Shown here: positions 46 through 53,337 of the stretch, one piece after another
Numbering within the stretch: position 1 is the stretch's first letter
Layout of the letters: each line of letters starts with the position of its first letter
NCBI GenBank assembly: GCA_022824805.1
Contig: JAJDZE010000200.1
Span: 1-64,000 of the forward strand
Direction of reading: 5' to 3'
DNA length: 64,000 bases
Origin: Acidimicrobiia bacterium
Lineage (GTDB): Bacteria; Actinomycetota; Acidimicrobiia; Acidimicrobiales; Poriferisodalaceae
Position numbers and translations under genes: made by a program
The notes under the pieces: generated by a model
Told to the model about the DNA's origin: nothing
The model's database searches: none
Seen by the model: the letters and a program-made list of their open reading frames with translations, nothing else

Positions 46-51
46 ACGTTA
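46..51 (-). promoter_or_regulatory. -10 hexamer TAACGT, leaderless-type
   Basis: On the minus strand TAACGT is followed by a 6-nt spacer and the ATG at 39. No Shine-Dalgarno sequence is present, so transcription probably starts at or next to the start codon. Confidence 0.45.
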
Positions 52-2485: not shown

Positions 2486-4236
2486 GAGTCGTCGTCGCTG
2501 GCTTTATCGGGGCGGAGCTCGGAGTGGAGCACTGCGTGGGTGACTGCTTCGGTGTCGGGCTCGGGCAGCTCGAAGTGGCCGAGCGCATGGGCGATGAGCG
2601 CGTCGTGAGCGGCTTGGCGCTCGGCAACGACGTGATCGACGAGGCCGTCGCGCTCGAGGTCGGCTGCGTCGGCCGGATCAGCGGCCCAAGCGAGCACTGC
2701 GATATCGGGGTTGTGCTCGCGGGCGATACGCGCGAACTGCTCGACCGCTGAGGGCGGGCTGTCGACCGCCAGCGCGATGCGGGCGTCGCGCAGACCGGCG
2801 CGGTCGGCGATCACGTGACGTGACACATCGCCGACGAGCACCCTGCGTCCGGTGGATGCGGCCCATCGCTGCGCCTCGGGGTCGAGTGACACGATGGTGT
2901 ACGGGATGTGTGCCAGTTCGAGCGCGGAGACGATGCGCTGTGCCCGGGGGCCGAAGCCGTTGACGACGGCATGGTCCTGCAGGGGTTCATAGCTGCCGAG
3001 GTCTTGCTGCTCGGACGGCCTGACGGCGTCGCTGTCGTGTGGCCGTCCACGCCGGTCGGCGTCGGATCGTGCTGCGAGCGACTGGCCCCAGCGGGCGCCG
3101 AACGGGCTGAATGCCATCAGCAGCACGGTGACAGCGATGAATGCGTCGGTGCCGTCGGCCAGTCCCGCCGGAACGAGCCCGACGTCTTGGCCGGCTCGCT
3201 CCAGCACGAAGGAGAACTCGCCGATCTGTGCCAGCACGATCGCCCCGGAGATCGCCACCGCTCGCCGCTGGCGCACCAGCAGCGCTGCCGTGGTGGTCGC
3301 GACCATCTTCACCACGACCACGGCTGCGGCCAGGCCGATGACGAGCGGCAGGTTGCGCACCAGGTAACCGACGTCGAGCAGCATGCCGATCGAGACGAAG
3401 AACGTCGCCGAGAAAAGGATCTGCAGCGGCATCACCTCGCCGAGTGCCCGCGCGGCCACCCGGCTCTCGCTGACCATCAGCCCGGCGAGAAACGCCCCGA
3501 GCGAGATCGACACATCGAGCAGGCTGGTGGCGTACGCCGTGCCGAAGCAGATCGCCAGCACGGTCAGCAGGAACACCTCGGCCGACTGGATCCGCGAAAC
3601 GTACCTGAGCACGGCCGGCACCAGCGTGCGGGCAACCACGATCACCGCCACCACGATGCCGGCCGCCTTGGCGAACGCGATCAGCACGTCAGTCGGACCC
3701 GTGATCTCGCCGCCGAGCAACGGCACCGCCAGCACCATGGCCACAATCGCCAAGTCCTGGAAGATGAGCAGCGCGACAGAGACGTTGCCCACCGGCGATG
3801 TGGTGGTCCGCCGTTCAGCCAGCACTTTCAGCACGATCGCCGTGCTGCTGAGCGACACGAGCAGGCCGGTGAACACCGCCGTGCGCCACTCCACGCCGAA
3901 TGCGGCCACCACCCCGGCCACGATGCCGGTGGTGAGGCCCACCTGCACCGCCCCGCCCACCAGGAACAGCGATGCCAGTCGCCGCACCCGTTCGAGGCTG
4001 AACTCGATGCCGAGGGTGAACAGCAGCAGCATCACGCCGATATCGGCCGACTGGTTGACGAGGTCGATGTCGCTGATGAGGCCGGTGCCGCTGGGCCCGA
4101 TGATCGTGCCGGCGGCGAGGAAGCCGACGATCGGCACCACACCCAGACGCGTCGACACGAAGGCGATCAGCGTCCCCGCAACCAGCAGGATCGCCAGCTC
4201 GGTGAACAACGGCGGTGCCGACGCAGCCAACAGCAC
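2482..4236 (-). CDS. CPA2/KefB-type cation:proton antiporter with TrkA-N domain
   Basis: 584 aa. Residues 1 to about 380 form a polytopic membrane domain of the Na+/H+ exchanger (CPA2) type, with FLAAGTIIGP and LLLFTLGIEF motifs. Residues about 420-540 form a Rossmann-like TrkA-N domain (HAVVNGFGPRAQRIV) that in relatives binds NAD(H) or another nucleotide and gates transport. It probably exchanges K+ or Na+ for protons at the cell membrane. The GTG start at 4236 is preceded by TAGTCT 9 nt upstream and no Shine-Dalgarno, so its leader is very short or absent. It overlaps the downstream CoA-transferase gene by 4 nt. Ion preference is unknown. Confidence 0.88.
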   Translation of the reverse strand: MLLAASAPPLFTELAILLVAGTLIAFVSTRLGVVPIVGFLAAGTIIGPSGTGLISDIDLVNQSADIGVMLLLFTLGIEFSLERVRRLASLFLVGGAVQVGLTTGIVAGVVAAFGVEWRTAVFTGLLVSLSSTAIVLKVLAERRTTTSPVGNVSVALLIFQDLAIVAMVLAVPLLGGEITGPTDVLIAFAKAAGIVVAVIVVARTLVPAVLRYVSRIQSAEVFLLTVLAICFGTAYATSLLDVSISLGAFLAGLMVSESRVAARALGEVMPLQILFSATFFVSIGMLLDVGYLVRNLPLVIGLAAAVVVVKMVATTTAALLVRQRRAVAISGAIVLAQIGEFSFVLERAGQDVGLVPAGLADGTDAFIAVTVLLMAFSPFGARWGQSLAARSDADRRGRPHDSDAVRPSEQQDLGSYEPLQDHAVVNGFGPRAQRIVSALELAHIPYTIVSLDPEAQRWAASTGRRVLVGDVSRHVIADRAGLRDARIALAVDSPPSAVEQFARIAREHNPDIAVLAWAADPADAADLERDGLVDHVVAERQAAHDALIAHALGHFELPEPDTEAVTHAVLHSELRPDKASDDDS

Positions 4237-4296
4237 TTGGGTCCGAGACTATTGGCGCGGACGCCTCACGGGACCTGCAGGTCTGCATCGCCGGCG

Positions 4297-9245: not shown

Positions 9246-9251
9246 TATCGT
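9246..9251 (+). promoter_or_regulatory. -10 hexamer TATCGT, leaderless-type
   Basis: TATCGT is followed by exactly 7 nt and the ATG at 9259. No Shine-Dalgarno is present, so the mRNA probably begins at the start codon. Confidence 0.5.
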
Positions 9252-9258
9252 CGGGCAC

Positions 9259-9645
9259 ATGAGCATCCCCGTGGAGCCCGGCGACATCGGCAAGCAGATG
9301 GAGCAGTTCGGCAACGCCGCCTACGTGCTGACGGTGCGCGACGACGCCACGCCGCACATCGCCCACCTGGCGATGCGGCTCGACGGCGACGTGCTGCGCT
9401 GCGGCGCCAGCCGTTCCGCTGCGGCCAACGTGGCACAGCGTCCGACGATCTCGGTGCTGTGGCCGCCATACGAGCCGGGCGGCTACTCGATGATCGTGGA
9501 TGCCGTGGCCAGCACGGTCGACGGGGCCGACGGGCTCGAACTGGAACTGCGGCCGACCAACGGCGTCCTGCACCGGCCTGCAACGCCGGCCACCCCGGCG
9601 ACCAGTCCCAACTGCAGCTCCGATTGCGCCCCGCTCAGCGCCTGA
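9259..9645 (+). CDS. Pyridoxamine 5'-phosphate oxidase-like FMN-binding split-barrel protein
   Basis: 128 aa from ATG 9259. The core YVLTVRDDATPHIAHLAMRLDGDVLRC followed by RPTISVLWPP is typical of PPOX-like split-barrel proteins, which bind FMN or F420 and often reduce or sequester small substrates. The last 25 residues (PATPATPATSP and on) are low complexity and are probably a disordered tail. The start choice is supported by the -10 hexamer 7 nt upstream. The exact cofactor and substrate are unknown. Confidence 0.72.
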   Translation: MSIPVEPGDIGKQMEQFGNAAYVLTVRDDATPHIAHLAMRLDGDVLRCGASRSAAANVAQRPTISVLWPPYEPGGYSMIVDAVASTVDGADGLELELRPTNGVLHRPATPATPATSPNCSSDCAPLSA

Positions 9646-9716
9646 GCCAGCGGGCGCTCGCTCTCCAGGTCCGTTGCTACGCCTGATGCTTCAACGACGC
9701 TTCGAGCCGGCTGGGG

Positions 9717-10730
9717 CTAGCTCTTCAGGTCGTCGAAGATGGTCTGCCAGCGCTGGCGGTCGCCCTTGTAGGGGGCGTAGAAGCTGACCCGGTCGACGAC
9801 GTCGTCGAATCGGCGCTTCAGCTCGGTGGCCACCTGCTCGGGCTCGGCCACCACCGCGAACGCATCGAGGATGTCGTCATCGACCAGGTTGGCCATCTCG
9901 ACCCAGCGGCCTTCCTTGGACATGGCGTTCAGCTCGGTCTGCATGTCGCCCCAGCCATGGCAGTCGAGCACCGGTCGGTACGCCGGCGTGGAGCCGTAGA
10001 ACGCCACTTGCTGCTTGGTGGCCTGGCGCGCCTTCTCCATGTCCTCTTCGGTGTTGCCGGTGACGATGAACGACGGCCCCGAGATCGTGATCTCGCTGGG
10101 GTCACGCCCGGCTCTGGCAGCACCCCGCTCGAGCGCCGGGATCGTCTCCTCGCGCAGGTACTTCTCGGTGGTGAAGCCGTGGCAGAGGAAGATGTCGCAG
10201 GTCTCGCCCGCCACAGCCGTCATCAGCGGGCCGACTCCCGCCAGCGCCAGTCGCGGCGTGCCGTAGGGATTCGGCCCAGGATCGAAGAACGGCGTCATCA
10301 GCGTGTGCTCGTAGAAGTCACCTCGGAAGTTCAGCTTCTCGCCGTTGTTCCAGCAGTCCCAGATGGCCTTGATCGCCATGATCATCTCGCGCATGCGGGC
10401 CGCCGGCTTGGACCACTCCATCGAGAAACGCCGAGTGATGTGCGGACGGATCTGGCTGCCCAGCCCCAGGATGAACCGCCCTTGCGACAGCGTCTGGATG
10501 TCATTGGCGCTGTAGGCCAACGTCATCGGGTTGCGGGCGAAGCCCACGGCGATGTTCGTGCCGAGGTCCACCGTCTCGGTCGCATGTGCGATGAGCGGGA
10601 GCATCGTGAACGGATCGTGGCTGGTCTCTGGCACCCACAAGCCGTCGTACCCCAACGCTTCCTGCTCTCGACTCGACTCCATCAGGTTGTCGAATCCGCT
10701 TGTGACTCCGAGGCCGCCGTCTACCTTCAT
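9717..10730 (-). CDS. LLM-class F420-dependent oxidoreductase (TIGR03617-like)
   Basis: 337 aa of the bacterial luciferase-like TIM-barrel superfamily: GYDGLWVPETSHDPF near the N-terminus, VDLGTNIAVGFARNP, then GRFILGLGSQI. Actinobacterial members of this subgroup generally use coenzyme F420 rather than FMN, and the sequence resembles TIGR03617-type proteins. The reaction is a hydride transfer on an unknown substrate. The start ATG at 10730 is supported by a TATCGT hexamer exactly 7 nt upstream. The gene immediately follows the APH-like gene but appears to have its own promoter. Confidence 0.85.
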   Translation of the reverse strand: MKVDGGLGVTSGFDNLMESSREQEALGYDGLWVPETSHDPFTMLPLIAHATETVDLGTNIAVGFARNPMTLAYSANDIQTLSQGRFILGLGSQIRPHITRRFSMEWSKPAARMREMIMAIKAIWDCWNNGEKLNFRGDFYEHTLMTPFFDPGPNPYGTPRLALAGVGPLMTAVAGETCDIFLCHGFTTEKYLREETIPALERGAARAGRDPSEITISGPSFIVTGNTEEDMEKARQATKQQVAFYGSTPAYRPVLDCHGWGDMQTELNAMSKEGRWVEMANLVDDDILDAFAVVAEPEQVATELKRRFDDVVDRVSFYAPYKGDRQRWQTIFDDLKS

Positions 10731-10737
10731 GGCCGGG

Positions 10738-10743
10738 ACGATA
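10738..10743 (-). promoter_or_regulatory. -10 hexamer TATCGT, leaderless-type
   Basis: On the minus strand TATCGT plus a 7-nt spacer leads to the ATG at 10730. It lies in the 17-nt gap after the phosphotransferase stop, so the oxidoreductase gene can be transcribed alone. Confidence 0.5.
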
Positions 10744-10747
10744 GCGG

Positions 10748-11794
10748 CTAGAGGTTTGCCAGCACCGACTCGGCCCGCTCGGCCAGCGACACGATGCTCT
10801 GCGGAAACTCGTGGACCTCAGGGGGAATCTCGGGGATCGCACCGCCCACATAGCGGGCATGCACACCCTCGAGAATGCATGCCAACCGCCAGCTCGCGAA
10901 AGCGAAGTGCCACTCGATGCTGCTGATGTCGCGGCCGGTCAGCTCCGCGTAGGCACGGGCGAGCTGGTTGCGGGTCCAGAAGCCCTCGGCCGTGGTGGCG
11001 TCGTGGCCGAGCGGGTTGAAGCCGTCGTCTGGCTCGACCCAGTAGCCGAGCAGGAATCCCAGCTCCGCGACCGGGTCGCCGAGCGTGGAGATCTCCCAAT
11101 CCAGCACGGCCGCTAGGTCTCCGCCGGTGGTGGAGAGGCAGTTGTCGAGGCGGTAGTCGCCGTGCACCAGCGTGGCCTCGGTCTGCGGCGGGATCGAGGC
11201 CACCAGCACATCGTGGACGCGTTCGATGATCGGCAGATCCCGTGACGTCATAGCCTTGAACTGGCGCCGCCAGACATGGAGCTGGCGAGCCACGTAGTCG
11301 TCCGGCCGGCCGAGCGTGGCGAGTCCCGTGGCTTCCAAGTCGGTGCTGTGGATGGCGGCGAGCACCTCGACCATCCGCCGGCTCAGCTCCCCACGGGCCT
11401 CGGGGGTCAGCGCCTCGACATCGTCGAGCAAGCGCAGCACGGTGCCGTCGACGAAGTCGGTCACGTAGAAGTCGGCGCCGTTCACCTCGTCGTCGGTGCA
11501 CAGGCCTACCACTGGCGGCGTAGGGACCTCGGTGGGCTCCAACGATGACAGCAAGCGGTGCTCGCGCACCATGTCGTGCGCCCCGGCCAGCAGGTGCGCC
11601 AGCGGCGGGCGGCGCAGCACCCACCGGCGCCCCGCTGCGTCGCTGACGCGGTAGGTGAGGTTGGAATGCCCGCCGGCGATGATCTCGAACAGCAGCGGCG
11701 GGCTGAGCTCGACTCGTTCGGCCATCCACGCCGTGACCGGCCCGATGTCAATGCCGGCGACGGCCTCGATGGCAGTGTTGGCAGAGTTCGTCAC
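10748..11794 (-). CDS. APH/ACAD10-like phosphotransferase
   Basis: 348 aa from a GTG at 11794, which has a GGAGG sequence 8 nt upstream. The protein-kinase-like fold is shown by FEIIAGGHSNLTYRV (nucleotide loop), the catalytic LVHGDYRLDNC and the metal-binding AVLDWE. Proteins of this type often sit beside acyl-CoA dehydrogenases in actinobacteria and relate to the kinase domain of human ACAD10, thought to phosphorylate hydroxyacyl substrates. That role would fit the catabolic genes upstream but is inference. The longer upstream frame lacks a ribosome site. Confidence 0.85.
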   Translation of the reverse strand: MTNSANTAIEAVAGIDIGPVTAWMAERVELSPPLLFEIIAGGHSNLTYRVSDAAGRRWVLRRPPLAHLLAGAHDMVREHRLLSSLEPTEVPTPPVVGLCTDDEVNGADFYVTDFVDGTVLRLLDDVEALTPEARGELSRRMVEVLAAIHSTDLEATGLATLGRPDDYVARQLHVWRRQFKAMTSRDLPIIERVHDVLVASIPPQTEATLVHGDYRLDNCLSTTGGDLAAVLDWEISTLGDPVAELGFLLGYWVEPDDGFNPLGHDATTAEGFWTRNQLARAYAELTGRDISSIEWHFAFASWRLACILEGVHARYVGGAIPEIPPEVHEFPQSIVSLAERAESVLANL

Positions 11795-11923
11795 CGTCGG
11801 TCCCTCCTGCGGTCGGCGCCAGCCAGCACCATCATGACCGCGCAGGCGGCGGGGTGTCTCACCGACAGCTGCATCCGGCAACGCTGCGCACGACGCCAAC
11901 GGCCCGGTACCGGCCCACACCAA

Positions 11924-11929
11924 TACGCT
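11924..11929 (+). promoter_or_regulatory. -10 hexamer TACGCT, leaderless-type
   Basis: TACGCT, then a 6-nt spacer, then the GTG at 11936. It lies in the 141-bp divergent gap with the phosphotransferase gene and decides the start of the transporter gene. Confidence 0.45.
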
Positions 11930-11935
11930 TCGCCG

Positions 11936-13093
11936 GTGCTGTTCGTGACGATCTACACCACGCAGTTCCTCGTCACGGCCTCGATGGGTGTCATCTTCGC
12001 CTACTTGGCGGACCTGCAAGATCGCTACGGCCTCTCCCACCTGGAGCTAGGCATGGTCGCCGCCGCCGGTTTCGTCGCCGGCCTATTGGCGCAGTTGCTG
12101 CTCTCGCCGCTGGTCGACCGGGGCCGCCACCGTTTCGTGGCATGGACCTCGGTGACAGCAGCAGTGTTCGGCGCTTTCGGCTTCGTATTCGCAGAGGAGA
12201 CTTGGTCGCTCGTGACGAGCCGGGCCTTGGCCGGCCTCTCCTTCGGACTGTTCGGCCTCGTGGCTCGCAAGGCGCTGATCGGCCGGGACATCAGCGGCAG
12301 CGGCGCCAAGGTGGGCGGCCTGCTGTCGTGCGCAGTGGCGGGGTTCATCAGCGGTCCAGCGATCGGGGCTGCGCTCAGCGGTGTCTCGTTCGAGGCCCCG
12401 TTCCTCCTCACCGGCACGCTGATGCTGTTGCTCGGACCGGTCTCCGCAGTGCTCATCTCGAAGTCGCCGATCGCTGCGGCTGCGGTGGACTACTCCGACC
12501 TCTCGAACCTGCTCCGCCGTCCTCGGGTCCAGGCGGCCATCTGCGTGCACGTCGGCATCTGGGGCTTGATCGGCATCTTCGACGCGACCGTCGACCGCTA
12601 CCTCACCGACGTGGGATTGTCGTCGGCAGAGCTGGCGGTCGGGCTGCTCATCATCGGCATCCCGCTGATGGCGTTGCCGCCATACACCGGCGCCCTGGCA
12701 GAACGCCTCGGCGGAGGTCGCGTCGGCGTCCCTGCTCTGCTGCTCTTCGTTCCGGCAGTGCTGCTGTATGGCTGGATTGGGGGACTGGCGAGCTTCATCG
12801 CCGTCGGCCTCGCCGAAGCGGTCACTGAGTCCTATGGCGTGATGGGTGCTCAAGTGCTCGTGCTCGAGGCCACGGGCGCTGAACAGGCGGCGATGGGGAC
12901 CGGAGTGTTGGAAGCTGTCGGCCTGCTCGTCGCGGCCGGCGCCGCATTCGGCGGCCCGCCGCTGTACGGCCATCTCGGGCCGCGTTGGCTGTTCGGTAGC
13001 TGGGCGGCGATCTGCCTGATCCTCGCGGCGCTCGCGATGCTGAGATTGAAAGCAGTGAAAATTCAACCAAAGGTAATCACACGGTCTCACTAA
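11936..13093 (+). CDS. MFS transporter
   Basis: 385 aa with about twelve hydrophobic segments. The first begins at once after the GTG (VLFVTIYTTQFLVTASMGVIF), and the MFS motif-A region appears as LSPLVDRGRHRFVAW after helix 2. Major facilitator proteins move small molecules using the proton gradient. Upstream in-frame codons would add a charged, non-conserved leader, and a TACGCT hexamer 6 nt before GTG 11936 favours that start. The stop overlaps the -10 hexamer of comEA. Substrate unknown; drug or metabolite efflux is plausible. Confidence 0.85.
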   Translation: MLFVTIYTTQFLVTASMGVIFAYLADLQDRYGLSHLELGMVAAAGFVAGLLAQLLLSPLVDRGRHRFVAWTSVTAAVFGAFGFVFAEETWSLVTSRALAGLSFGLFGLVARKALIGRDISGSGAKVGGLLSCAVAGFISGPAIGAALSGVSFEAPFLLTGTLMLLLGPVSAVLISKSPIAAAAVDYSDLSNLLRRPRVQAAICVHVGIWGLIGIFDATVDRYLTDVGLSSAELAVGLLIIGIPLMALPPYTGALAERLGGGRVGVPALLLFVPAVLLYGWIGGLASFIAVGLAEAVTESYGVMGAQVLVLEATGAEQAAMGTGVLEAVGLLVAAGAAFGGPPLYGHLGPRWLFGSWAAICLILAALAMLRLKAVKIQPKVITRSH

Positions 13094-13096
13094 GAT
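13091..13096 (+). promoter_or_regulatory. -10 hexamer TAAGAT, leaderless-type
   Basis: TAAGAT is followed by 7 nt and the comEA ATG at 13104. Its first bases are the stop codon (TAA) of the MFS gene. No Shine-Dalgarno is present. Confidence 0.5.
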
Positions 13097-13103
13097 CGCG
13101 TGT

Positions 13104-13763
13104 ATGCGGGCGTCGGGCCCAGGGCCGTCAGCACACGGGCGCGCTGCCGACTGGCGTTCCGTAGCGAGGGAGGCAGCGGGATTCGCACGGCGGGTCGGCA
13201 TGGTGCCGGTCCTGGTGCTGCTGGGTGCCGTCGGCGCAGTCGTGGCTGCGGGATTTCTGGCCGGGGTCCGCCATGGCTCGCCCGAGCCCATCGAGCTGCC
13301 GCTCGCATCGGCCGAGGCACCGCTCCCGGTGGCGACCACGCAGCCGTCGTTGCTGAAGGTGCACCTCGCCGGAGCGGTACGGCAGCCGGGGCTCTACGAC
13401 GTTCCGGCTGGCGCCCGGGTCGGCGACCTCGTCGAGGCAGCCGGCGGGCTGGCCGCCGATGCCGACGAAGCAGCAGTCAACCTGGCGGAGCGGCTGCGCG
13501 ATGAGCAGCAGATCTATGTGCCGGTCGAGGGCGAATTGCCTGCTGCGGGGGCGCTGGGATCGGATTCGGCCGGACCGATCGATGTCAACACCGCCTCGGC
13601 ATCACAGCTTGACGAGCTGCCGGGTATCGGCCCGTCCCTGGCGGCGGCGATCATCGCCTTCAGGACCGAGCACGGACCGTTCGCGACCCTGGATGCACTT
13701 GAGCAGGTGCCCGGGATCGGGCCCTCCAAGCTGTCCCGGCTGCGGTCCCATGCAACCGTTTGA
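13104..13763 (+). CDS. comEA: ComEA-like DNA-binding protein
   Basis: 219 aa. One membrane segment (about residues 33-52) anchors the protein. It is followed by a SLBB-type domain (KVHLAGAVRQPGLYDVPAGARVGD) and a C-terminal pair of helix-hairpin-helix motifs (LDELPGIGPSLAAAI and LEQVPGIGPSKLSRL). ComEA binds double-stranded DNA outside the membrane during natural transformation. It overlaps comEC by 14 nt, so the pair is one operon. With the Tad pilus genes 9 kb away it suggests DNA uptake ability. Confidence 0.9.
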   Translation: MRASGPGPSAHGRAADWRSVAREAAGFARRVGMVPVLVLLGAVGAVVAAGFLAGVRHGSPEPIELPLASAEAPLPVATTQPSLLKVHLAGAVRQPGLYDVPAGARVGDLVEAAGGLAADADEAAVNLAERLRDEQQIYVPVEGELPAAGALGSDSAGPIDVNTASASQLDELPGIGPSLAAAIIAFRTEHGPFATLDALEQVPGIGPSKLSRLRSHATV

Positions 13764-15696
13764 ATCGCCCGAGCAGGCCGAGGCGCTCCGGCCGTCGATT
13801 GCATCGATCCATGCGGGCGCACTCGACCCGGCTATCCCGCCACGGGCGGCGCCTCGCCGGTTCGGAGGTCTCAGCGCTGTTGCCGACCGGTGGCTGGTGG
13901 CGGGTGCCATCGCCACCGCGGCCGGCGCCCTGTGGGCACCCCCGGTGTCGCTGTGGCGGGGCTCGTGGTGGTGGGGCATTGCACTGGGCCTCGGGCTCGG
14001 CGCCGCCGGCCTAGCGAGCCGTGCGCGGGTGCTCATCCCGGCTGGCCTGCTGGTGCTCGCAGCGGTCGCCATGGGAACCCAGATCGCCCAGCTCAGCTCC
14101 GTGACGGGAGGCGAGTTCGAAGGCGACGTGCAACTGGTCGGCGACCCTCGATGGCGCTCTGGCGCCCTGGTCGTGCCGTTCAGCGCCGAGATCGACGGTG
14201 CCCAGCACCGGTGGGAGGGCTGGGCACGGGGCCCGGCCGCATGGCGGCTGGAAGACGCAGCCATGGGGGAGCGCTGGCGCCTGAGCGTGAGCGCAGAACC
14301 GGCCGAGCCCGCCGACCGTCCCTTCCTGTGGCCCCGGCATCTCGCGGGGACCGCAGAGATTCGAACGGCGCACCGTCTCGACGGCGGCAGCGCGCCGTTC
14401 CGCATCGCGAACTCGCTGCGCGGGCTCGTGGAGGCATCGGGCGAGTCGCTGTCGCAGCGCGATGCAGCGCTGCTGGCCGGCTTCGTGTACGGCGACGACC
14501 GGGGCCAGCTTCCCGAAGTCGTTCACGATTTCCGGGAGACGTCGCTCACCCACCTGCTTGCGGTGTCGGGTTCGAATGTGGCGTTCGTGCTGCTGCTGTT
14601 CGCACCCTTGCTGGCCGGGCTTCGACCGCGGGCCCGGCTGGTCGCCGTGGCAGCCCTGCTCATCCAGTTCGCCGTGCTCACCAGGGGCGAGCCCTCGGTG
14701 CTGCGGGCGTGCGTACTCGCCACTCTCGCCGTTGGCGCGCATGCAGTCGGCAGACGGGCATCGGCGACGCGGCTGTTGGCGCTGGCGGTCATCGTGCTGC
14801 TGCTCGTCGACCCGTTGCTTGTCCGCTCGGTGGGCTTCCAGCTCTCAGTTGCCGCGACCGCCGCCATCGTGATCGGTGCCCGCCGCATCTCCCGCCTGCT
14901 GTGGGGGCCGCAATGGCTGCGCTTGGCGCTTGCCGCCACCCTGTGCGCCCAGGCGGGAGTGCTGCCGGTTCAGCTCGCCGTCTTCGGCTCGCTGCCGCTC
15001 GTGAGCATTCCGGCCAACGTCCTGGCTGGACCGGTCGCAGGCCCCGCGATGGTCTGGGGCCTCGTCGGCGGCCTCACGGGCGGCCTCGCCGGCGATGCGG
15101 TCGCATCGGTGCTGCACCTGCCGACCAAGCTGATGATGGGGTGGGTGGCGGGGGTGGCGCATCGGGGCGCATCGCTGGGATGGCCGCAGATCGAGGCTGC
15201 TGAATTGACTGCCGCGGCCGCGGTAGCCGGATGCTGTGCTGGGTTCTTTGTGGCCGCACCGCGCCTATTCGGGAACCTGGCCGTGCTGCGCAACCTGGCG
15301 GTGGTCGCGGCTGGCGTCGGGGTCTGGGCAGCGGCCAGCACCCACCGACCTGCGCCTCCGGCAGGGCCGCATCTTGGCGTGCATCACATCGATCCGGTTG
15401 TCGTGGTGGTGGATCGCCCTGATGCCGCACGTGCACTCGGCCAGCTCGCTGCCGCGGGAATCGACCGCATCGACATCCTCGTGGCCCGCTCGGCCAGCCG
15501 CGCCGGCCGCGAGGCGGTTCGTGCCCTGCACGCCCGACACGAGGTAGGCCAAGTGCTCGCGCCGGCGGGTCTCGGCGGCCGGATCGCCTACGAGACAGTG
15601 ACCGAACCCGTCGTCATCGCCGGGCTCACCGTCGAGCCGTCTGCAGAACGCCTGCACGTCTCCGCACCTGAAACGGCCGGCCCACAGGTGCCGTAG
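13750..15696 (+). CDS. comEC: ComEC/Rec2 DNA-uptake channel with degenerate C-terminal domain
   Basis: 648 aa from ATG 13750, inside the end of comEA. The N-terminus has membrane helices and an OB-like DUF4131 region; the central Competence domain (about residues 225-490) carries the family hallmark ETSLTHLLAVSGSNVAF and many membrane segments. ComEC forms the channel for single-stranded DNA entry. Most family members end in a metallo-beta-lactamase nuclease domain with HxHxDH. Here the last 110 residues keep its outline (GIDRIDILVARSASRAG, then RHEVGQVLAPAGL), but the metal motif is replaced by ARSASRAG, so this nuclease should be inactive. Confidence 0.88.
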   Translation: MQPFESPEQAEALRPSIASIHAGALDPAIPPRAAPRRFGGLSAVADRWLVAGAIATAAGALWAPPVSLWRGSWWWGIALGLGLGAAGLASRARVLIPAGLLVLAAVAMGTQIAQLSSVTGGEFEGDVQLVGDPRWRSGALVVPFSAEIDGAQHRWEGWARGPAAWRLEDAAMGERWRLSVSAEPAEPADRPFLWPRHLAGTAEIRTAHRLDGGSAPFRIANSLRGLVEASGESLSQRDAALLAGFVYGDDRGQLPEVVHDFRETSLTHLLAVSGSNVAFVLLLFAPLLAGLRPRARLVAVAALLIQFAVLTRGEPSVLRACVLATLAVGAHAVGRRASATRLLALAVIVLLLVDPLLVRSVGFQLSVAATAAIVIGARRISRLLWGPQWLRLALAATLCAQAGVLPVQLAVFGSLPLVSIPANVLAGPVAGPAMVWGLVGGLTGGLAGDAVASVLHLPTKLMMGWVAGVAHRGASLGWPQIEAAELTAAAAVAGCCAGFFVAAPRLFGNLAVLRNLAVVAAGVGVWAAASTHRPAPPAGPHLGVHHIDPVVVVVDRPDAARALGQLAAAGIDRIDILVARSASRAGREAVRALHARHEVGQVLAPAGLGGRIAYETVTEPVVIAGLTVEPSAERLHVSAPETAGPQVP

Positions 15697-15731
15697 CGGG
15701 CCCACCTTCCCGCGTCTCGTCTCAGCAGAAC

Positions 15732-15737
15732 TAGCGT
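15732..15737 (+). promoter_or_regulatory. -10 hexamer TAGCGT, leaderless-type
   Basis: TAGCGT, 7-nt spacer, then the holA ATG at 15745. This gives holA its own promoter despite following comEC by about 50 nt. Confidence 0.5.
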
Positions 15738-15744
15738 CGACCGA

Positions 15745-16716
15745 ATGGCAGGCGGTGCCGTGAGGCTGGTCAGCGGCGCCGATGAGATTCTCACAGCCGA
15801 GGCGGTGCGAACTGCCGTCACCGAGCTCGTGGGCGATGCCGACCGGGCAGAGGTGCTCGACGAGTTCGCCGGCGATGAATACACGCTGGCAGATGTCGTC
15901 ATCTCGGCATCGACGCCGCCGATGCTGGCAACCCACCGGGTCGTCGTGGCCCGGGGGCTCAGCCGATTCGGCACGGCCGAGCTTGCCCCGTTGATCGCGT
16001 GGCTGGACGATCCCTGCCCCACCACCGATCTGGTGCTCGAGTGGGACTCCGGCCGCGTGCCGCGCCCGCTGGCCGAGGCCGTCGAGGCCGGCGGCGGCCA
16101 CCGGATCGCATCAGACGTGCCCGGCGGGGCGCGCAATCGCCGGACATGGCTCGAGGAGCGCCTCGCGCAGGCACCGGTCCAGCTCGATGGCCGAGCCCGA
16201 GCGAGCGTGGCCGACCACCTCGGCGCCGAGCTCAGCCGCCTCGGAGCGCTGCTCGACACGCTGGCAGCGGTCTTCGGCGAAGGCGCCCGCCTCGATGCCG
16301 ACGACGTGCTGCCCTACCTCGGCGCCGAGGGCGATGTGCCGCCGTGGGATCTGACCGACGCGATCGACCGGGGAAACGTGAATGCGACCCTCGCAGTGCT
16401 GCAGCGGATGTGGGGTGCAGGCCGGCACCCCCTCGCAGTCACGGCCGCCATCGCCAACCACATCACGCGGATGGCCCGCCTGGACGGCGCCGGCGCCGCC
16501 AACGAGAAGGAGGCCGCTGCTGTGCTGGGCTTGCGCGGTTCCACGTTTCCGGCCCGCAAGGCGATGGATGGATGCCGACGGCGGGGCAGCGAAGGCATTG
16601 CCCGAGCTGTCGAGCTGCTCGCAGCGGCCGACATGGACATGCGCGGACGGTCCGGACTCGACGCTCGCTGCGTAGCCGAGATCCTGTGCGCGCGGCTCGC
16701 CGCCGGCGCCCACTGA
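15745..16716 (+). CDS. holA: DNA polymerase III subunit delta
   Basis: 323 aa, usual length for the delta clamp-loader subunit, which opens the beta clamp during replication. The N-terminal part (VRLVSGADEILTAEAVRTAV) and the HolA C-terminal collar region (DLTDAIDRGNVNATLAVLQRMWGAG) match the family, and the position just before rpsT and lepA is a conserved holA neighbourhood. The start is fixed by the hexamer 7 nt upstream. It converges with rpsT, leaving 8 nt between the stops. Confidence 0.88.
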   Translation: MAGGAVRLVSGADEILTAEAVRTAVTELVGDADRAEVLDEFAGDEYTLADVVISASTPPMLATHRVVVARGLSRFGTAELAPLIAWLDDPCPTTDLVLEWDSGRVPRPLAEAVEAGGGHRIASDVPGGARNRRTWLEERLAQAPVQLDGRARASVADHLGAELSRLGALLDTLAAVFGEGARLDADDVLPYLGAEGDVPPWDLTDAIDRGNVNATLAVLQRMWGAGRHPLAVTAAIANHITRMARLDGAGAANEKEAAAVLGLRGSTFPARKAMDGCRRRGSEGIARAVELLAAADMDMRGRSGLDARCVAEILCARLAAGAH

Positions 16717-45086: not shown

Positions 45087-45092
45087 TACCCT
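45087..45092 (+). promoter_or_regulatory. -10 hexamer TACCCT, leaderless-type
   Basis: TACCCT, 7-nt spacer, then GTG 45100. It fixes the start of the prenyl transferase gene inside a very long spurious open frame. Confidence 0.5.
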
Positions 45093-45099
45093 GCGCAGT

Positions 45100-45822
45100 G
45101 TGAACCGAGGTGCGGGAGTCGACGTGTCGCGCCTGCCGACTCACGTGGCCTGTGTGATGGACGGCAACGGCCGCTGGGCCCAGGCGCGCGGGCTGCCGCG
45201 TACCGAAGGTCACGCAGCCGGCGAAGAGGCCCTCATTGACACCGTCGAGGGCGCGGCCGAGATCGGCCTGCGGTGGCTCACCGTGTATGCGTTCAGCACG
45301 GAGAACTGGCGCCGCCCGCCGGCGGAGGTGCGCTTCCTCATGGGCTTCAATGAGTCGCTGCTGGTGCGGCGCAGCCATGAGCTGCACGAGCAGAACGTGC
45401 GGATCCGCTTTGTGGGGCGGCCCGATGCCCGCATCCCGCGACGGGTCCGGGCCCGCATCGACGAGGCCGTCGAGCTGACAGCGGCCAACACGGGCCTCAC
45501 GTTCACGGTGGCGTTCAACTACGGCGGCAGGGCCGAGATCGTCGACGCTGCCGCCGGTCTGGTGCGCTCGGGCGTGCCCGCAGACGAAGTCGACGAGGCG
45601 GCGCTCGCCAAGCATCTCTACGACGCCGAGATGCCCGAGGTCGACCTCATGATCCGGACCTCAGGAGAGAACCGGCTGTCGAACTTCCTGCTGTGGCAGA
45701 TGGCCTACAGCGAGCTGGTGTTCACCGACACGCTCTGGCCCGACTTCCGCCGGAGCGACCTGTTCGACGCCATCTGCATCTACCAGGCCCGTGACCGGCG
45801 CTTCGGCGGCCTGAACCGCTGA
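45100..45822 (+). CDS. uppS: Isoprenyl (undecaprenyl/decaprenyl) diphosphate synthase
   Basis: 240 aa from GTG 45100. The cis-prenyltransferase signature is complete: CVMDGNGRWAQARGLPRTEGHAAG, FSTENWRRP, and RTSGENRLSNFLLWQMAYSELVF. It chain-extends a farnesyl-type primer with isopentenyl diphosphate to make the lipid carrier for cell-wall synthesis. The open frame continues upstream for over 2 kb opposite dinG, but this is only a GC-rich antisense shadow. Confidence 0.94.
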   Translation: MNRGAGVDVSRLPTHVACVMDGNGRWAQARGLPRTEGHAAGEEALIDTVEGAAEIGLRWLTVYAFSTENWRRPPAEVRFLMGFNESLLVRRSHELHEQNVRIRFVGRPDARIPRRVRARIDEAVELTAANTGLTFTVAFNYGGRAEIVDAAAGLVRSGVPADEVDEAALAKHLYDAEMPEVDLMIRTSGENRLSNFLLWQMAYSELVFTDTLWPDFRRSDLFDAICIYQARDRRFGGLNR

Positions 45823-46720: not shown

Positions 46721-47155
46721 CTAGCGGAAGATGCGGCTGCGGCTGTTGGGGTTCTCGACGCTCTCGTGGAGCCGCTTGAAGCGCTTTTCCGCCCGTACGT
46801 CTGCGGTTGAGCGCCACCACCTGCGGCCGCGCCAGAAGGCGCCGGCGAATGCCAGCAGTGCCAGCACTACCTGGGTGCGGGCCAAGCCGCCGCACAGCGG
46901 ATGCCGGCTCTCGGGCCGCACATAGTCCTGCCCGGTGGTCCGCATCTCGGCAATTGCGTCGTCGACTGCGTTGCGCACCTCGTCAAGGTCGACGTCGGGC
47001 GGGGCCAGACCCAGCAGCGGCATCGAGCAGGTCCAGTCGACCTGACCCTCTTGAATGTCCTCGTAGGGGCCGCCGAAGACCGGCAGCGGCAACAACAGCA
47101 CCATGATGCCGAGGAATGCACACAGGAAGACCACGGTGGTGTCACGCAGGCGCAC
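46721..47155 (-). CDS. Hypothetical protein with two membrane segments
   Basis: 144 aa. The GTG at 47155 is chosen over an upstream start at 47212 because TAGGCT sits exactly 7 nt before it. Two hydrophobic helices (TVVFLCAFLGIMVLLLPLPVF and VVLALLAFAGAFW) flank an external loop of about 60 residues with two cysteines (DWTCSMP and HPLCGG) that could pair. The C-terminal tail is strongly basic and probably cytoplasmic. No family recognised. Confidence 0.65.
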   Translation of the reverse strand: MRLRDTTVVFLCAFLGIMVLLLPLPVFGGPYEDIQEGQVDWTCSMPLLGLAPPDVDLDEVRNAVDDAIAEMRTTGQDYVRPESRHPLCGGLARTQVVLALLAFAGAFWRGRRWWRSTADVRAEKRFKRLHESVENPNSRSRIFR

Positions 47156-47162
47156 GGCCGCG

Positions 47163-47168
47163 AGCCTA
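47163..47168 (-). promoter_or_regulatory. -10 hexamer TAGGCT, leaderless-type
   Basis: On the minus strand TAGGCT plus 7 nt leads to the GTG at 47155. It diverges from the glyS promoter 70 nt away. Confidence 0.45.
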
Positions 47169-47236
47169 ATGACCGGCGCCCGGCGGGTGAGGCGCCGCCT
47201 GCCGAAAATCACCCCGACGCCTCCGCAGGCCCTCAG

Positions 47237-47242
47237 TACCCT
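47237..47242 (+). promoter_or_regulatory. -10 hexamer TACCCT, leaderless-type
   Basis: TACCCT, 8-nt spacer, then the glyS GTG at 47251. No Shine-Dalgarno. It favours GTG 47251 over the TTG at 47242, which overlaps the hexamer. Confidence 0.45.
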
Positions 47243-47250
47243 TGCCGCCC

Positions 47251-48600
47251 GTGACGAGTACCGCTGGCGCCGAATCCGAACAGCCAGGCCCCGATCCCGC
47301 GCTGTTCGACAAGATCGTCAATCTCTGCAAGCGCCGCGGCATCGTGTTCGGCTCGGCCGAGATCTACGGCGGATTCCGCAGCGCGTACGACTATGGCCCG
47401 ATCGGGGCCCAGTTGCTGCGCAACGTCAAGGACGCCTGGTGGCGCTCGATGGTGCAGATGCGCAGCGACGTGGTGGGTCTCGACGCATCCATCCTGGGCC
47501 CGCCCCAGATCTGGGAGGCCTCGGGGCACCTCAAGAACTTCACCGACCCGCTGGTCGATTGCACCTATTGCAAGACCCGCCACCGCCAGGACCAGCTCGA
47601 CGACCCCGACGTGTGCCCGAACTGCGGCCGGCGTGGCACCTTCACCGAGGCCCGGGCGTTCAACCTCATGTTCCGCACCCAGGCGGGCCCCGTCCAGGGC
47701 GCGGGCGCCGAGGTGTACCTGCGGCCCGAGACGGCCCAGGGCATGTTCGTCAACTTCAAGAACATCCTCGAGACGAGCCGCAAGCGCCCGCCGTTCGGCA
47801 TCGCCCAGGTGGGCAAGTCGTTCCGCAATGAGATCACGCCGGGCAACTTCGTGTTCCGCACCCGCGAGTTCGAGCAGATGGAGCTCGAGTTCTTCGTGCC
47901 CCCCGGCGAGGCCCAACGGTGGTACGAGTACTGGCTTGCCGAGCGGTTCCAGTGGTATGCCGACCTGGGCATCCCGGCGGGTCAGCTTCGCCTGCGAGCC
48001 CATGACGCCGACGAGCTCAGCCATTACTCAAGCGGCACCAGCGACGTCGAGTTCCTGTTCCCTTGGGGCTGGGGCGAGCTCGAAGGCATCGCCAACCGCG
48101 GCGATTACGACCTGCGCCAGCACGCCGAGCACTCGGGCCAGAAGCTGGAGTACTTCGACCAGGCCAGCGGCGAGCGGTACGTGCCGCACGTGATCGAGCC
48201 CGCAGCCGGGGCGACGCGTGCGCTGATGGCGTTCCTGCTGGCTGCGTACCGAACCGAGACCGTCAACGACGAACTGCGCACGGTGCTGGCGCTGCACCCG
48301 CGGCTGGCGCCGTACAAGGTGGCGGTGCTGCCGCTGTCACGCAAGGCGCCGCTGCCCGCGTTGGCCGGCGAGGTGCTCGGGCTGTGCCAGCCGCACTGGA
48401 TGTGCGACTACGACGAGACCCAGGCCATCGGGCGCCGCTACCGCCGCCAGGACGAGATCGGCACGCCGCTGTGCGTGACGGTCGACTTCGAGTCGGTCGA
48501 CGACCGCAGCGTGACCGTGCGCGACCGCGACACGATGGCCCAGGACCGGGTGCCGATCGACGCGCTGGTAGACCATCTGCGCCGTCGGCTGGGTCTCTGA
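47251..48600 (+). CDS. glyS: Glycyl-tRNA synthetase (dimeric, alpha2 type)
   Basis: 449 aa. It has class II synthetase motifs: KRRGIVFGSAEIYGGFRSAYDYGP at the start, motif 2 in FRNEITPGNFVFRTREFEQMELEFF, and motif 3 in PAAGATRALMAFLL. A zinc-ribbon insertion (CTYCKTRHR...CPNCGRRG) lies near residue 105. It charges tRNA-Gly. The anticodon domain (YKVAVLPLSRKAPL to the end) is complete. The start is fixed by the hexamer upstream. Confidence 0.95.
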   Translation: MTSTAGAESEQPGPDPALFDKIVNLCKRRGIVFGSAEIYGGFRSAYDYGPIGAQLLRNVKDAWWRSMVQMRSDVVGLDASILGPPQIWEASGHLKNFTDPLVDCTYCKTRHRQDQLDDPDVCPNCGRRGTFTEARAFNLMFRTQAGPVQGAGAEVYLRPETAQGMFVNFKNILETSRKRPPFGIAQVGKSFRNEITPGNFVFRTREFEQMELEFFVPPGEAQRWYEYWLAERFQWYADLGIPAGQLRLRAHDADELSHYSSGTSDVEFLFPWGWGELEGIANRGDYDLRQHAEHSGQKLEYFDQASGERYVPHVIEPAAGATRALMAFLLAAYRTETVNDELRTVLALHPRLAPYKVAVLPLSRKAPLPALAGEVLGLCQPHWMCDYDETQAIGRRYRRQDEIGTPLCVTVDFESVDDRSVTVRDRDTMAQDRVPIDALVDHLRRRLGL

Positions 48601-50447: not shown

Positions 50448-50462
50448 TGGTACCATATATGG
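50448..50462 (+). promoter_or_regulatory. Overlapping palindromes and -10 region of the vapBC operon
   Basis: TGGTACCA (50448-50455) and CCATATATGG (50453-50462) are perfect overlapping palindromes ending one base before ATG 50464. TACCAT at 50451-50456 forms a -10 hexamer 7 nt from the ATG. An antitoxin bound here would block transcription, the usual vapBC autoregulation. Confidence 0.55.
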
Positions 50463-50463
50463 C

Positions 50464-50670
50464 ATGCACAAGACCACCGTCTACCTGCCCGAGAAGATCA
50501 AGGCAGGCGTGGAGCGCGAGGCCCGGCTGCGGTCGTGCTCCGAGGCCGAGGTGATCCGCCAAGCCATCGCCGACGCCGTGTCGAGGCCCGCCCCCAGGTC
50601 AGCCATCATCCCCGGCGACAGCGCATGGGCGCTCGATGCTGACGAACTGCTAGCGGGCTTCGGCGAGTGA
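50464..50670 (+). CDS. Ribbon-helix-helix antitoxin (VapB-like)
   Basis: 68 aa. MHKTTVYLPEKIKAGVEREARLRSCSEAEVIRQAI is a ribbon-helix-helix DNA-binding domain, and the C-terminal 30 residues (GDSAWALDADELLAGFGE) would neutralise the toxin. The stop overlaps the toxin start (GTGA). The start is probably leaderless and sits on a palindromic operator. Confidence 0.85.
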   Translation: MHKTTVYLPEKIKAGVEREARLRSCSEAEVIRQAIADAVSRPAPRSAIIPGDSAWALDADELLAGFGE

Positions 50671-51083
50671 CTGTCGTGGCCGACACGAGCGCGCTGATCG
50701 CGTTCTACAGCGAGTCGGGAACCGAGCATGACGATGTGAGTGCATGGCTAGCAGCCCATGATGAGCCGATCGTCGTCTCCCCCTTTGTTGTCGCCGAGCT
50801 CGATTACCTCGTCGCCACCCGCAAAGGCGTTGATGCCGAGCTGGCTGTGCTGGCCGAACTGGCCGGGGGTGCGTACGAGCTCGCTGCGATGACCGCTGCC
50901 GACATGACGCAGGCTTCGGAAGTCATTGCGCGCTACCGGGATCTCGGCATCGGCATCACGGATGCCTCGTTGGTCGTGCTCGCTGCGCGATATGAAACCG
51001 ACACGATCCTCACACTCGACCGTCGGCACTTCGGCGTACTGCGCTCCCTCGCTGGCGAAGCGCTGCACATCGTCCCGCACTAG
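50667..51083 (+). CDS. vapC: PIN-domain ribonuclease toxin (VapC-like)
   Basis: 138 aa. The PIN acidic residues are in VVADTSALIAFY (D6), VVAELDYL (E near residue 44) and GITDASLVVLA (D near residue 98). VapC toxins cleave tRNA or rRNA with a Mg2+-dependent active site. The gene is co-translated with its antitoxin by a 4-nt overlap. The pair is lodged between the ppdK-like gene and dnaG, which looks like an insertion in an otherwise conserved housekeeping order. The RNA target is unknown. Confidence 0.87.
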   Translation: MTVVADTSALIAFYSESGTEHDDVSAWLAAHDEPIVVSPFVVAELDYLVATRKGVDAELAVLAELAGGAYELAAMTAADMTQASEVIARYRDLGIGITDASLVVLAARYETDTILTLDRRHFGVLRSLAGEALHIVPH

Positions 51084-51162
51084 CCCTGACGGGCCACCCG
51101 GCTGGGCAGTGAGGTTGTCTGGGCGGAGGTGTGTTGCAGCCAGTTACTAGCGTCATCGGCAG

Positions 51163-53337
51163 ATGAGCATTCGGGATTCCGACGTGCAGCGTGTGCGCGA
51201 GGCGACCGATCTTGTCGCGCTCATCGGTCGCAGGGTGAGCCTGAAGCGTGTCGGCAGCCGTCACGTGGGGCTGTGCCCGTTCCACACAGAGAAGACACCG
51301 TCGTTCAGCGTCAACGGCGCGGAAGGCTTCTATCACTGCTTCGGCTGCAAGGCCTCGGGCGATGCCATCACGTTCCTGCGTGAGACCGAGCATCTCGACT
51401 TCACCGACGCCGTGGAGCAGCTCGCGGCAGCGGCGAACATCGAGCTCATCTACGGCGCGCCCGGCGCACAGCGCGCCAACCGGCACCGCAAAGAGCTGAT
51501 GGACCTGCTCGAGCGCGCCGCCCGCTATTACCACGAGCGCCTGATGAGCAGCCCCGACGCGGGCGAGGCGCGGAAGTATGTGCGACGGCGTGGTTACGAC
51601 CGCGCCACGGTCATGAAGTGGCGTCTTGGCTACGCACCACCGCTGTGGGATGCGCTGCGCCAGCACCTCGACGCTCCGGTGGACCTGCTCAGGAAGGCCG
51701 GCCTGGCGTCCCAGGTTTCCCGACGTGCAAACAGCACGGGCGTCGAAGCCGAGTCGCCAAACAGCAGTCGAGCGGAACAGGCACCTGATTTCTTTCGCGA
51801 CCGTGTCATGTTCCCGATCTGTGATGCCAGCGGTCGGGTGGTCAGCTTCGCCGGGCGCGTTCTGCCCCGATCTGGTGAGCCCCCGCCGAAGGGCCCCAAG
51901 TACAAGAACACCGCTGGCACGGCGGTCTACGACAAGAGCAAGGTGCTCTACGGGCTGCATCTGGCCAAGCAGGCGGCACGCAGCACGGAGCGAATCGTTG
52001 TCTGCGAAGGCCATACCGACGTCATCGGCTGCGATCTCGCCGGCATCTCCGAGGCAGTCGCGACGTGCGGTACGGCGCTGACCAAGCAACACGCAGAGCT
52101 GCTGTCGCGCTCGGCCAAGCGCGTCGTGCTCGCGTTCGACGCGGACGCCGCAGGCCAATCCGCTGCCGAGCGGGTACACCAGTGGGAGCGGGAGTTCGGC
52201 CTCGACATCTTCGTGGCAGCGTTCCCGCCCGGGACCGATCCAGGCGATCTTGCAGCGACCGACCCGCCGGCACTGCGCAGGGCGCTCGACGAAGCCCAAC
52301 CGCTGCACACCTTCCGGGCCGAGCAGATCCTGCAGCGCGCCGACCTCGACAGTCCCTCAGGCCGCGACCGCGCTGCAGATGAGGCGGCCGGGGTGTTCGC
52401 GGTCTACCCGCCAGAGATCCTGCTCGACCGCGACCTGGCGCCGATCGCCGACCGCATTCCCATGGATGTCGAGCAGTTCCGCAAACGAGTCGACGCAGCC
52501 CGTCAGCGTCTCGACGACCGCCCAGCCCCCTCAGCGCCCGACCCATACGACGAAGCGCCGCCCCCGCCCGATCCCGGCGAGGACTACTTGGACAACTTCG
52601 GCGATGGGTACCCAGACGGCGACTTCGGCGACGCTGGCTATCCAGATGATGATCCGCTCCTTGGCGGGGATTGGAGGGCTCCGGGCGCCGGCGGCGACTC
52701 GAGCGCCGCTCTCGCGCAGCGCTCACGGCGGCGTACTGCAGGCCGACGCGCACCAGATGCTCGCAAGCAAGCCGACGTTGACTTGGCACTGCTAGCGGCG
52801 GCGGCCTCTCCCCACAGCGATGTACTTGGCCTGATGGTGCCAGAGATCCTCGCAACACCCGCGGGGCGCGAGGCATTCGCACAGATGACGAGCGACGAGG
52901 GCTGGCGCGACCATGCATCTCCGGCAAGCCGTTCATCCCATGGCGACTCATCAGGAGATGATCTGGAACATGACGACCGGCCGACTGCCGATGGCGATCC
53001 CGTGGCCGAGATGCTGCTCGCTGCTGATGCCGCTGGGCCGCACGTGAGCGAAGAGGACGCCAAAGACCGCGTGGCGATGGCCATGCGGCACTTCGTCCGT
53101 GCAACGATCAACAGCGTCAGCGCCGGCGGCGACATCCCGAGGACCCAGCTTGACCCGAACCTCTCTGCACACGCGCAAATGGAATTTCGCGACCAATGCC
53201 TGAGGTGGTTGCGCGAGCGCGAGCCGGAATTGCTGGATCTCGACAAGCGCATCGGTGCGGTCCAGAACGTGCGGGACTGGCTGTGCTCACTCGGCGGAGC
53301 AGAGCAGGTTGCTTCAGAGCGCCAAGGTGCCGAGTAG
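51163..53337 (+). CDS. dnaG: DNA primase DnaG
   Basis: 724 aa. The N-terminal zinc finger (LCPFHTEKTPSFSV, then YHCFGCKASGD) is complete. The catalytic TOPRIM region has VCEGHTDVIG (EGYTDV in most relatives) and VVLAFDADAAG. An acidic Pro/Asp/Gly-rich linker (about residues 445-505) precedes the helicase-binding C-terminal part. It makes RNA primers for replication. TAGCGT lies 9 nt before the ATG. Confidence 0.95.
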   Translation: MSIRDSDVQRVREATDLVALIGRRVSLKRVGSRHVGLCPFHTEKTPSFSVNGAEGFYHCFGCKASGDAITFLRETEHLDFTDAVEQLAAAANIELIYGAPGAQRANRHRKELMDLLERAARYYHERLMSSPDAGEARKYVRRRGYDRATVMKWRLGYAPPLWDALRQHLDAPVDLLRKAGLASQVSRRANSTGVEAESPNSSRAEQAPDFFRDRVMFPICDASGRVVSFAGRVLPRSGEPPPKGPKYKNTAGTAVYDKSKVLYGLHLAKQAARSTERIVVCEGHTDVIGCDLAGISEAVATCGTALTKQHAELLSRSAKRVVLAFDADAAGQSAAERVHQWEREFGLDIFVAAFPPGTDPGDLAATDPPALRRALDEAQPLHTFRAEQILQRADLDSPSGRDRAADEAAGVFAVYPPEILLDRDLAPIADRIPMDVEQFRKRVDAARQRLDDRPAPSAPDPYDEAPPPPDPGEDYLDNFGDGYPDGDFGDAGYPDDDPLLGGDWRAPGAGGDSSAALAQRSRRRTAGRRAPDARKQADVDLALLAAAASPHSDVLGLMVPEILATPAGREAFAQMTSDEGWRDHASPASRSSHGDSSGDDLEHDDRPTADGDPVAEMLLAADAAGPHVSEEDAKDRVAMAMRHFVRATINSVSAGGDIPRTQLDPNLSAHAQMEFRDQCLRWLREREPELLDLDKRIGAVQNVRDWLCSLGGAEQVASERQGAE

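Follow-up and report, generated by a model that had tools for sequence, protein, structure and literature searches.

A TANNNT hexamer placed 6–8 nt before the start codon recurs throughout the genome of an uncultured Acidimicrobiia bacterium (Poriferisodalaceae), far above chance. From its sequence and position it is very probably a sigma-70 −10 box of leaderless genes, whose mRNA would begin at the start codon or 1–3 nt before it.

TANNNT before ATG and GTG starts

We analysed a window of 64,000 nucleotides (positions 1–64,000 of contig JAJDZE010000200.1, assembly GCA_022824805.1; the whole genome is 3.69 Mb in 211 contigs) and a genome sample consisting of this window plus stretches from 61 other contigs, 1,167,182 bases or about one third of the genome. 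Spacing is given throughout as the number of bases between hexamer and start codon. Gene calls came from a home-made finder, a three-periodic fifth-order Markov model trained on the same 1,167,182 bases. The start scan took every in-frame ATG, GTG and TTG from −30 to +15 codons around the onset of coding potential, with a lower ORF limit of 90 aa; it was thus free of start choice, and the TANNNT motif was not used in picking candidates. The chance level was obtained from dinucleotide shuffles, 200 for the genome sample and 500 for the window.

A count of TANNNT by distance against shuffled sequence had been proposed in the sequence-only reading of this DNA, and, applied to about a third of the genome, it gave a peak at 6–8 nt. 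TANNNT stood at these spacings before in-frame ATG or GTG candidates 120 times, relative to a mean of 10.0 and a maximum of 21 in 200 shuffles of the 1,167,182 bases. The peak was sharp, with 3, 48, 48, 24, 12, 7 and 2 matches at spacings 5, 6, 7, 8, 9, 10 and 11; outside spacings 6–10 the counts for ATG and GTG candidates in the genome sample were between 0 and 7. The window alone gave 1, 6 and 1 matches at spacings 6, 7 and 8, a total of 8 versus 0.58 expected and a maximum of 4 in 500 shuffles. Of 772 genes in the genome sample, 118 (15%, about one in seven) had TANNNT at 6–8, as did 83 of 391 genes that looked first in their operon (21%) and 8 of 156 operon-internal genes; these percentages are approximate because the genes were called with the home-made finder. 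The same procedure found no TANNNT peak in the genome sample before TTG candidates or before eight control codons at the corresponding positions, and none in 200 kb from E. coli K-12. Two genomes from other families of the same order showed a clear peak, involving 24% of genes in G024 and 14% in G029.

Ten hexamers in the window had been listed beforehand, and by direct reading all ten were present at the positions, on the strands and with the spacings given below. Eight were recovered by the motif-independent scan; those missed were at 39, at the contig end, and at 50464, where the ORF of 68 aa lies under the limit of 90 aa. Five of the ten fall within 9246–15745, the range to which the feature had been assigned, but the feature itself extends genome-wide. 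The last two lines give weaker candidates absent from the earlier list.

46–51, minus strand: TAACGT, predicted −10 box of the gene starting at 39, spacing 6; the contig end cuts the gene after 13 codons
9246–9251, plus strand: TATCGT, predicted −10 box of a 128-aa ORF, ATG at 9259, spacing 7
10738–10743, minus strand: TATCGT, predicted −10 box of a luciferase-like monooxygenase gene, ATG at 10730, spacing 7
11924–11929, plus strand: TACGCT, predicted −10 box of an MFS transporter gene, GTG at 11936, spacing 6
13091–13096, plus strand: TAAGAT, predicted −10 box of a ComEA-like gene, ATG at 13104, spacing 7
15732–15737, plus strand: TAGCGT, predicted −10 box of a holA-like gene (DNA polymerase III delta), ATG at 15745, spacing 7
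45087–45092, plus strand: TACCCT, predicted −10 box of uppS, GTG at 45100, spacing 7
47163–47168, minus strand: TAGGCT, predicted −10 box of a small ORF divergent from glyRS, GTG at 47155, spacing 7
47237–47242, plus strand: TACCCT, predicted −10 box of the glycyl-tRNA synthetase gene (glyRS), GTG at 47251, spacing 8
50451–50456, plus strand: TACCAT, predicted −10 box of a ribbon-helix-helix antitoxin ORF, ATG at 50464, spacing 7
4246–4251, minus strand: TAGTCT, weaker candidate −10 box, GTG at 4236, spacing 9
51148–51153, plus strand: TAGCGT, weaker candidate −10 box, ATG at 51163, spacing 9

The monooxygenase gene is separated by 17 nt from the co-directional gene upstream, and the Pfam match of the holA-like gene was slightly under the cut-off. 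At 13091–13093, TAA serves both as the stop codon of the MFS gene and as bases 1–3 of the predicted −10 box of the ComEA-like gene; as this was the only one of 132 sites at which a −10 TAA or TAG doubled as the stop of the upstream gene, such sharing is not a general feature. Between the small ORF at 47155 and glyRS at 47251 lies an intergenic region of 95 bp, shared by two divergent leaderless-type promoters (47163–47242). The antitoxin ORF at 50464 is followed by a PIN-domain toxin ORF at 50667–51083, and a perfect 10-bp palindrome, CCATATATGG (50453–50462), overlaps the antitoxin −10 box just before the start; it may be the operator of the ribbon-helix-helix antitoxin in this PIN-toxin pair.

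CANNNT at 5–7 nt had been put forward as a variant of the motif, and this found no clear support. Its 27 matches at spacing 6 were not clearly above background and are mostly attributable to codon phase, since CANNNT occurred 22, 22 and 23 times at spacings 1, 4 and 16 in the genome sample and GANNNT 26 times at spacing 6. We therefore dropped CANNNT as a variant −10 box.

Site anatomy and the leaderless reading

To describe the sites we used a set of 124 non-operon sites at spacings 6–9 from the genome sample. A 4-nt Shine-Dalgarno core was present at 3 of these 124 starts (2–3%) compared with 87 of 289 (about 30%) other first genes, each taken at the nearest candidate start. No conserved −35 element was seen at the 124 sites: none of the positions ahead of the hexamer, from −32 to −1, had a base above 50%. 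The third position of the hexamer preferred G, and C stood at −1 in 60% of sites versus 48% at Shine-Dalgarno starts. The primary sigma factor of the genome (L310) has a canonical region 2.3–2.4, the part that reads the −10 element, although its match to TIGR02393 was below the curated cut-off. For about half of the genes in the genome sample, no candidate start had either TANNNT at 6–8 or a 4-nt Shine-Dalgarno core, which may in part reflect limits of the gene finder. The sole 16S rRNA match (C143, 87–967) ended near model position 902, so that the assembly lacks the anti-Shine-Dalgarno end.

The usual gap between a sigma-70 −10 box and the transcription start point is 6 nt, and the distance varies by a few bases. 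With this usual gap, transcription would begin on the start codon itself at a spacing of 6, and there or 1–2 nt before it at spacings of 7–8. We propose that the principal sigma-70-type factor would recognise the hexamer as a −10 element, that RNA polymerase would start transcribing on the first base of ATG or GTG, or 1–3 nt ahead of it, and that the resulting mRNA, having neither leader nor Shine-Dalgarno sequence, would be used by ribosomes initiating on a 5′-terminal AUG or GUG. We infer where transcription starts and how the mRNA is translated; the motif, its spacing, its restriction to ATG and GTG, the near absence of a Shine-Dalgarno sequence, the conservation described below and the canonical sigma region were observed directly. 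Leaderless mRNA fits because starts are confined to ATG and GTG, because Shine-Dalgarno cores are nearly excluded, and because T1, A2, T6 and the spacing are conserved across the genus. The earlier proposal that TANNNT starts mark leaderless genes thus gains support from the peak and its controls, the ATG/GTG-only rule, Shine-Dalgarno exclusion and conservation.

We considered three other explanations. The hexamer could be a real −10 box serving a leader of 1–5 nt, making the genes near-leaderless rather than strictly leaderless. Spacings of 7, 8, 9 and 10 (48, 24, 12 and 7 matches) exceed the 6-nt minimum, the 19 matches at 9–10 may mean short leaders and not zero, and a variation of a few bases between −10 box and start point is known; this same variability, however, explains those spacings with a zero leader, and the ATG/GTG-only rule matches the strict 5′-terminal start codons of mycobacteria. 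We regard such short leaders as unlikely, although well within consideration. It is far less probable, indeed very improbable, that the hexamer is a translation signal other than Shine-Dalgarno on a leadered mRNA whose true promoter lies farther upstream. Bacteroides is among the bacteria with non-canonical ribosome-binding sites (PMC9581028), but a TA...T whose middle bases are free has the pattern of a −10 box, the motif clusters at operon-first genes and is seldom seen inside operons, it stays 6–8 nt from the start, and it is excluded before TTG even though TTG is a usable leadered start. An artefact of in-frame TAG or TAA stops bounding ORFs just upstream of the start, suggested by the in-frame position of the hexamer at spacing 6, where 34 of 48 begin with TAG or TAA, has practically no probability left and is refuted by the counts at spacings 7 and 8, in that spacing 7, which is out of frame, gave the same count of 48 with a TAG/TAA share of 29/48, removal of candidates with in-frame stops left 14, 48 and 21 matches at spacings 6, 7 and 8, and TTG and the control codons gave no peak.

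Known leaderless systems and start prediction

The leaderless −10 design is a well-known actinobacterial trait, and just the lineage is newly documented here, within the open-access literature searched, in which we found no account of leaderless genes in Acidimicrobiia. In nearly all the Actinobacteria that they examined, Zheng et al. (2011; PMC3160421) found about 20% of genes to carry TANNNT, its first T lying about 12 bp ahead of the start, and read these TA-led genes as leaderless with a −10 box whose middle bases are free in high-GC genomes. The present sites do not differ in design from theirs; a search of that paper's text did not show Acidimicrobiia to be named there. Leaderless genes were mapped in M. 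tuberculosis by Cortes (2013; PMC3898074), and in mycobacteria about a quarter of genes have start points on the start codon, with a TANNNT −10 and no conserved −35 (PMC3898074, PMC4633059). Mycobacterial leaderless starts were found experimentally to be ATG or GTG only (Shell 2015, PMC4633059), the −10 box and Shine-Dalgarno sequence are mutually exclusive, and toxin-antitoxin pairs are often leaderless (PMC3898074, PMC4633059). The present genome has the same TANNNT, lack of −35, ATG/GTG restriction, near exclusion of Shine-Dalgarno cores and a predicted toxin-antitoxin case, and its C at −1 with RT at +1/+2 matches the initiation preference reported for M. tuberculosis; in mycobacteria, however, start points and ribosome occupancy were measured, whereas here they are deduced from the DNA. 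A similar −10/ORF design occurs in a different phylum, Deinococcus-Thermus, where TANNNT a few bases upstream of an ORF drives leaderless transcription in reporter tests (PMC12340547).

These sites extend a trait known from actinobacteria to an uncultured lineage of Acidimicrobiia. In such genomes, TANNNT 6–8 nt before an in-frame ATG or GTG near the onset of coding can be expected to mark a real start. The suggestion that so tight a spacing makes a start-prediction rule is borne out here: with 120 matches found and 10 expected by chance, the precision should be about 92%, and start annotation is correctable for about one gene in seven. As a rule it is not new, given Zheng et al. (2011) and the gene finders that already model similar signals: GeneMarkS-2 and StartLink+ consider leaderless transcription when placing gene starts (PMC9581028), but do so with statistical models in place of a simple TANNNT spacing.

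Conservation in relatives

For seven window genes, orthologues were compared in as many as ten further genomes of the genus; for holA and glyRS the comparison also went beyond the genus. The nearest relatives that bear a name are metagenome assemblies. Averaged over the seven promoters, conservation was 98% at T1, A2 and T6, 91% at N3–5, 88% in the discriminator and 72% in upstream sequence; as N3–5 and the discriminator were also fairly well kept, proximity to the gene explains part of this conservation. In two of the seven promoters the middle bases varied among species while T1, A2, T6 and their position relative to the start were kept. Orthologues of the monooxygenase gene (10730) carried TATCGT, TACTCT, TATGGT or TAGCGT, always 7 nt from the ATG and with T1, A2 and T6 invariant, and those of the ORF at 47155 in 11 genus genomes carried TAGGCT, TAAGAT, TAGGAT or TAGCAT, at spacing 7 throughout. 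T1, A2, T6 and the spacing were identical for the MFS gene (11936) in 5 genus genomes, and the uppS −10 box was invariant in 11 genomes, with divergence beginning upstream of about −18. For the ORF at 9259, TA...T and spacing were kept in 10 genus genomes; this set and that of glyRS tell us less, since conservation extends to their flanks.

TA...T stood 6–8 nt before an in-frame ATG or GTG in nearly all Acidimicrobiia orthologues of glyRS that we read, and among these orthologues the exact start lay up to ten codons away from that of the query. TAGCGT preceded holA at 7 nt in 9 of 11 genus genomes, and beyond the genus TA...T was found at 7–9 nt in all seven other genera of the family with an orthologue; in more distant families of the order it was not seen at the extrapolated holA start. 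Leaderless initiation might be an old, vertically inherited trait of individual Acidimicrobiia genes, a view that we hold tentatively and at somewhat less than even confidence. Retention of the glyRS and holA geometry across genera while its surroundings were replaced would point to selection on particular genes to be expressed without a leader, as opposed to a neutral arrangement of the promoter. In two genomes of the same genus, G007 (L169) and G005 (L171), holA has lost TAGCGT and has GGGAGCAGGGCGCTG and GGGGGCACGGCGCTG, respectively, before the ATG instead, which may reflect a change from leaderless to leadered expression.
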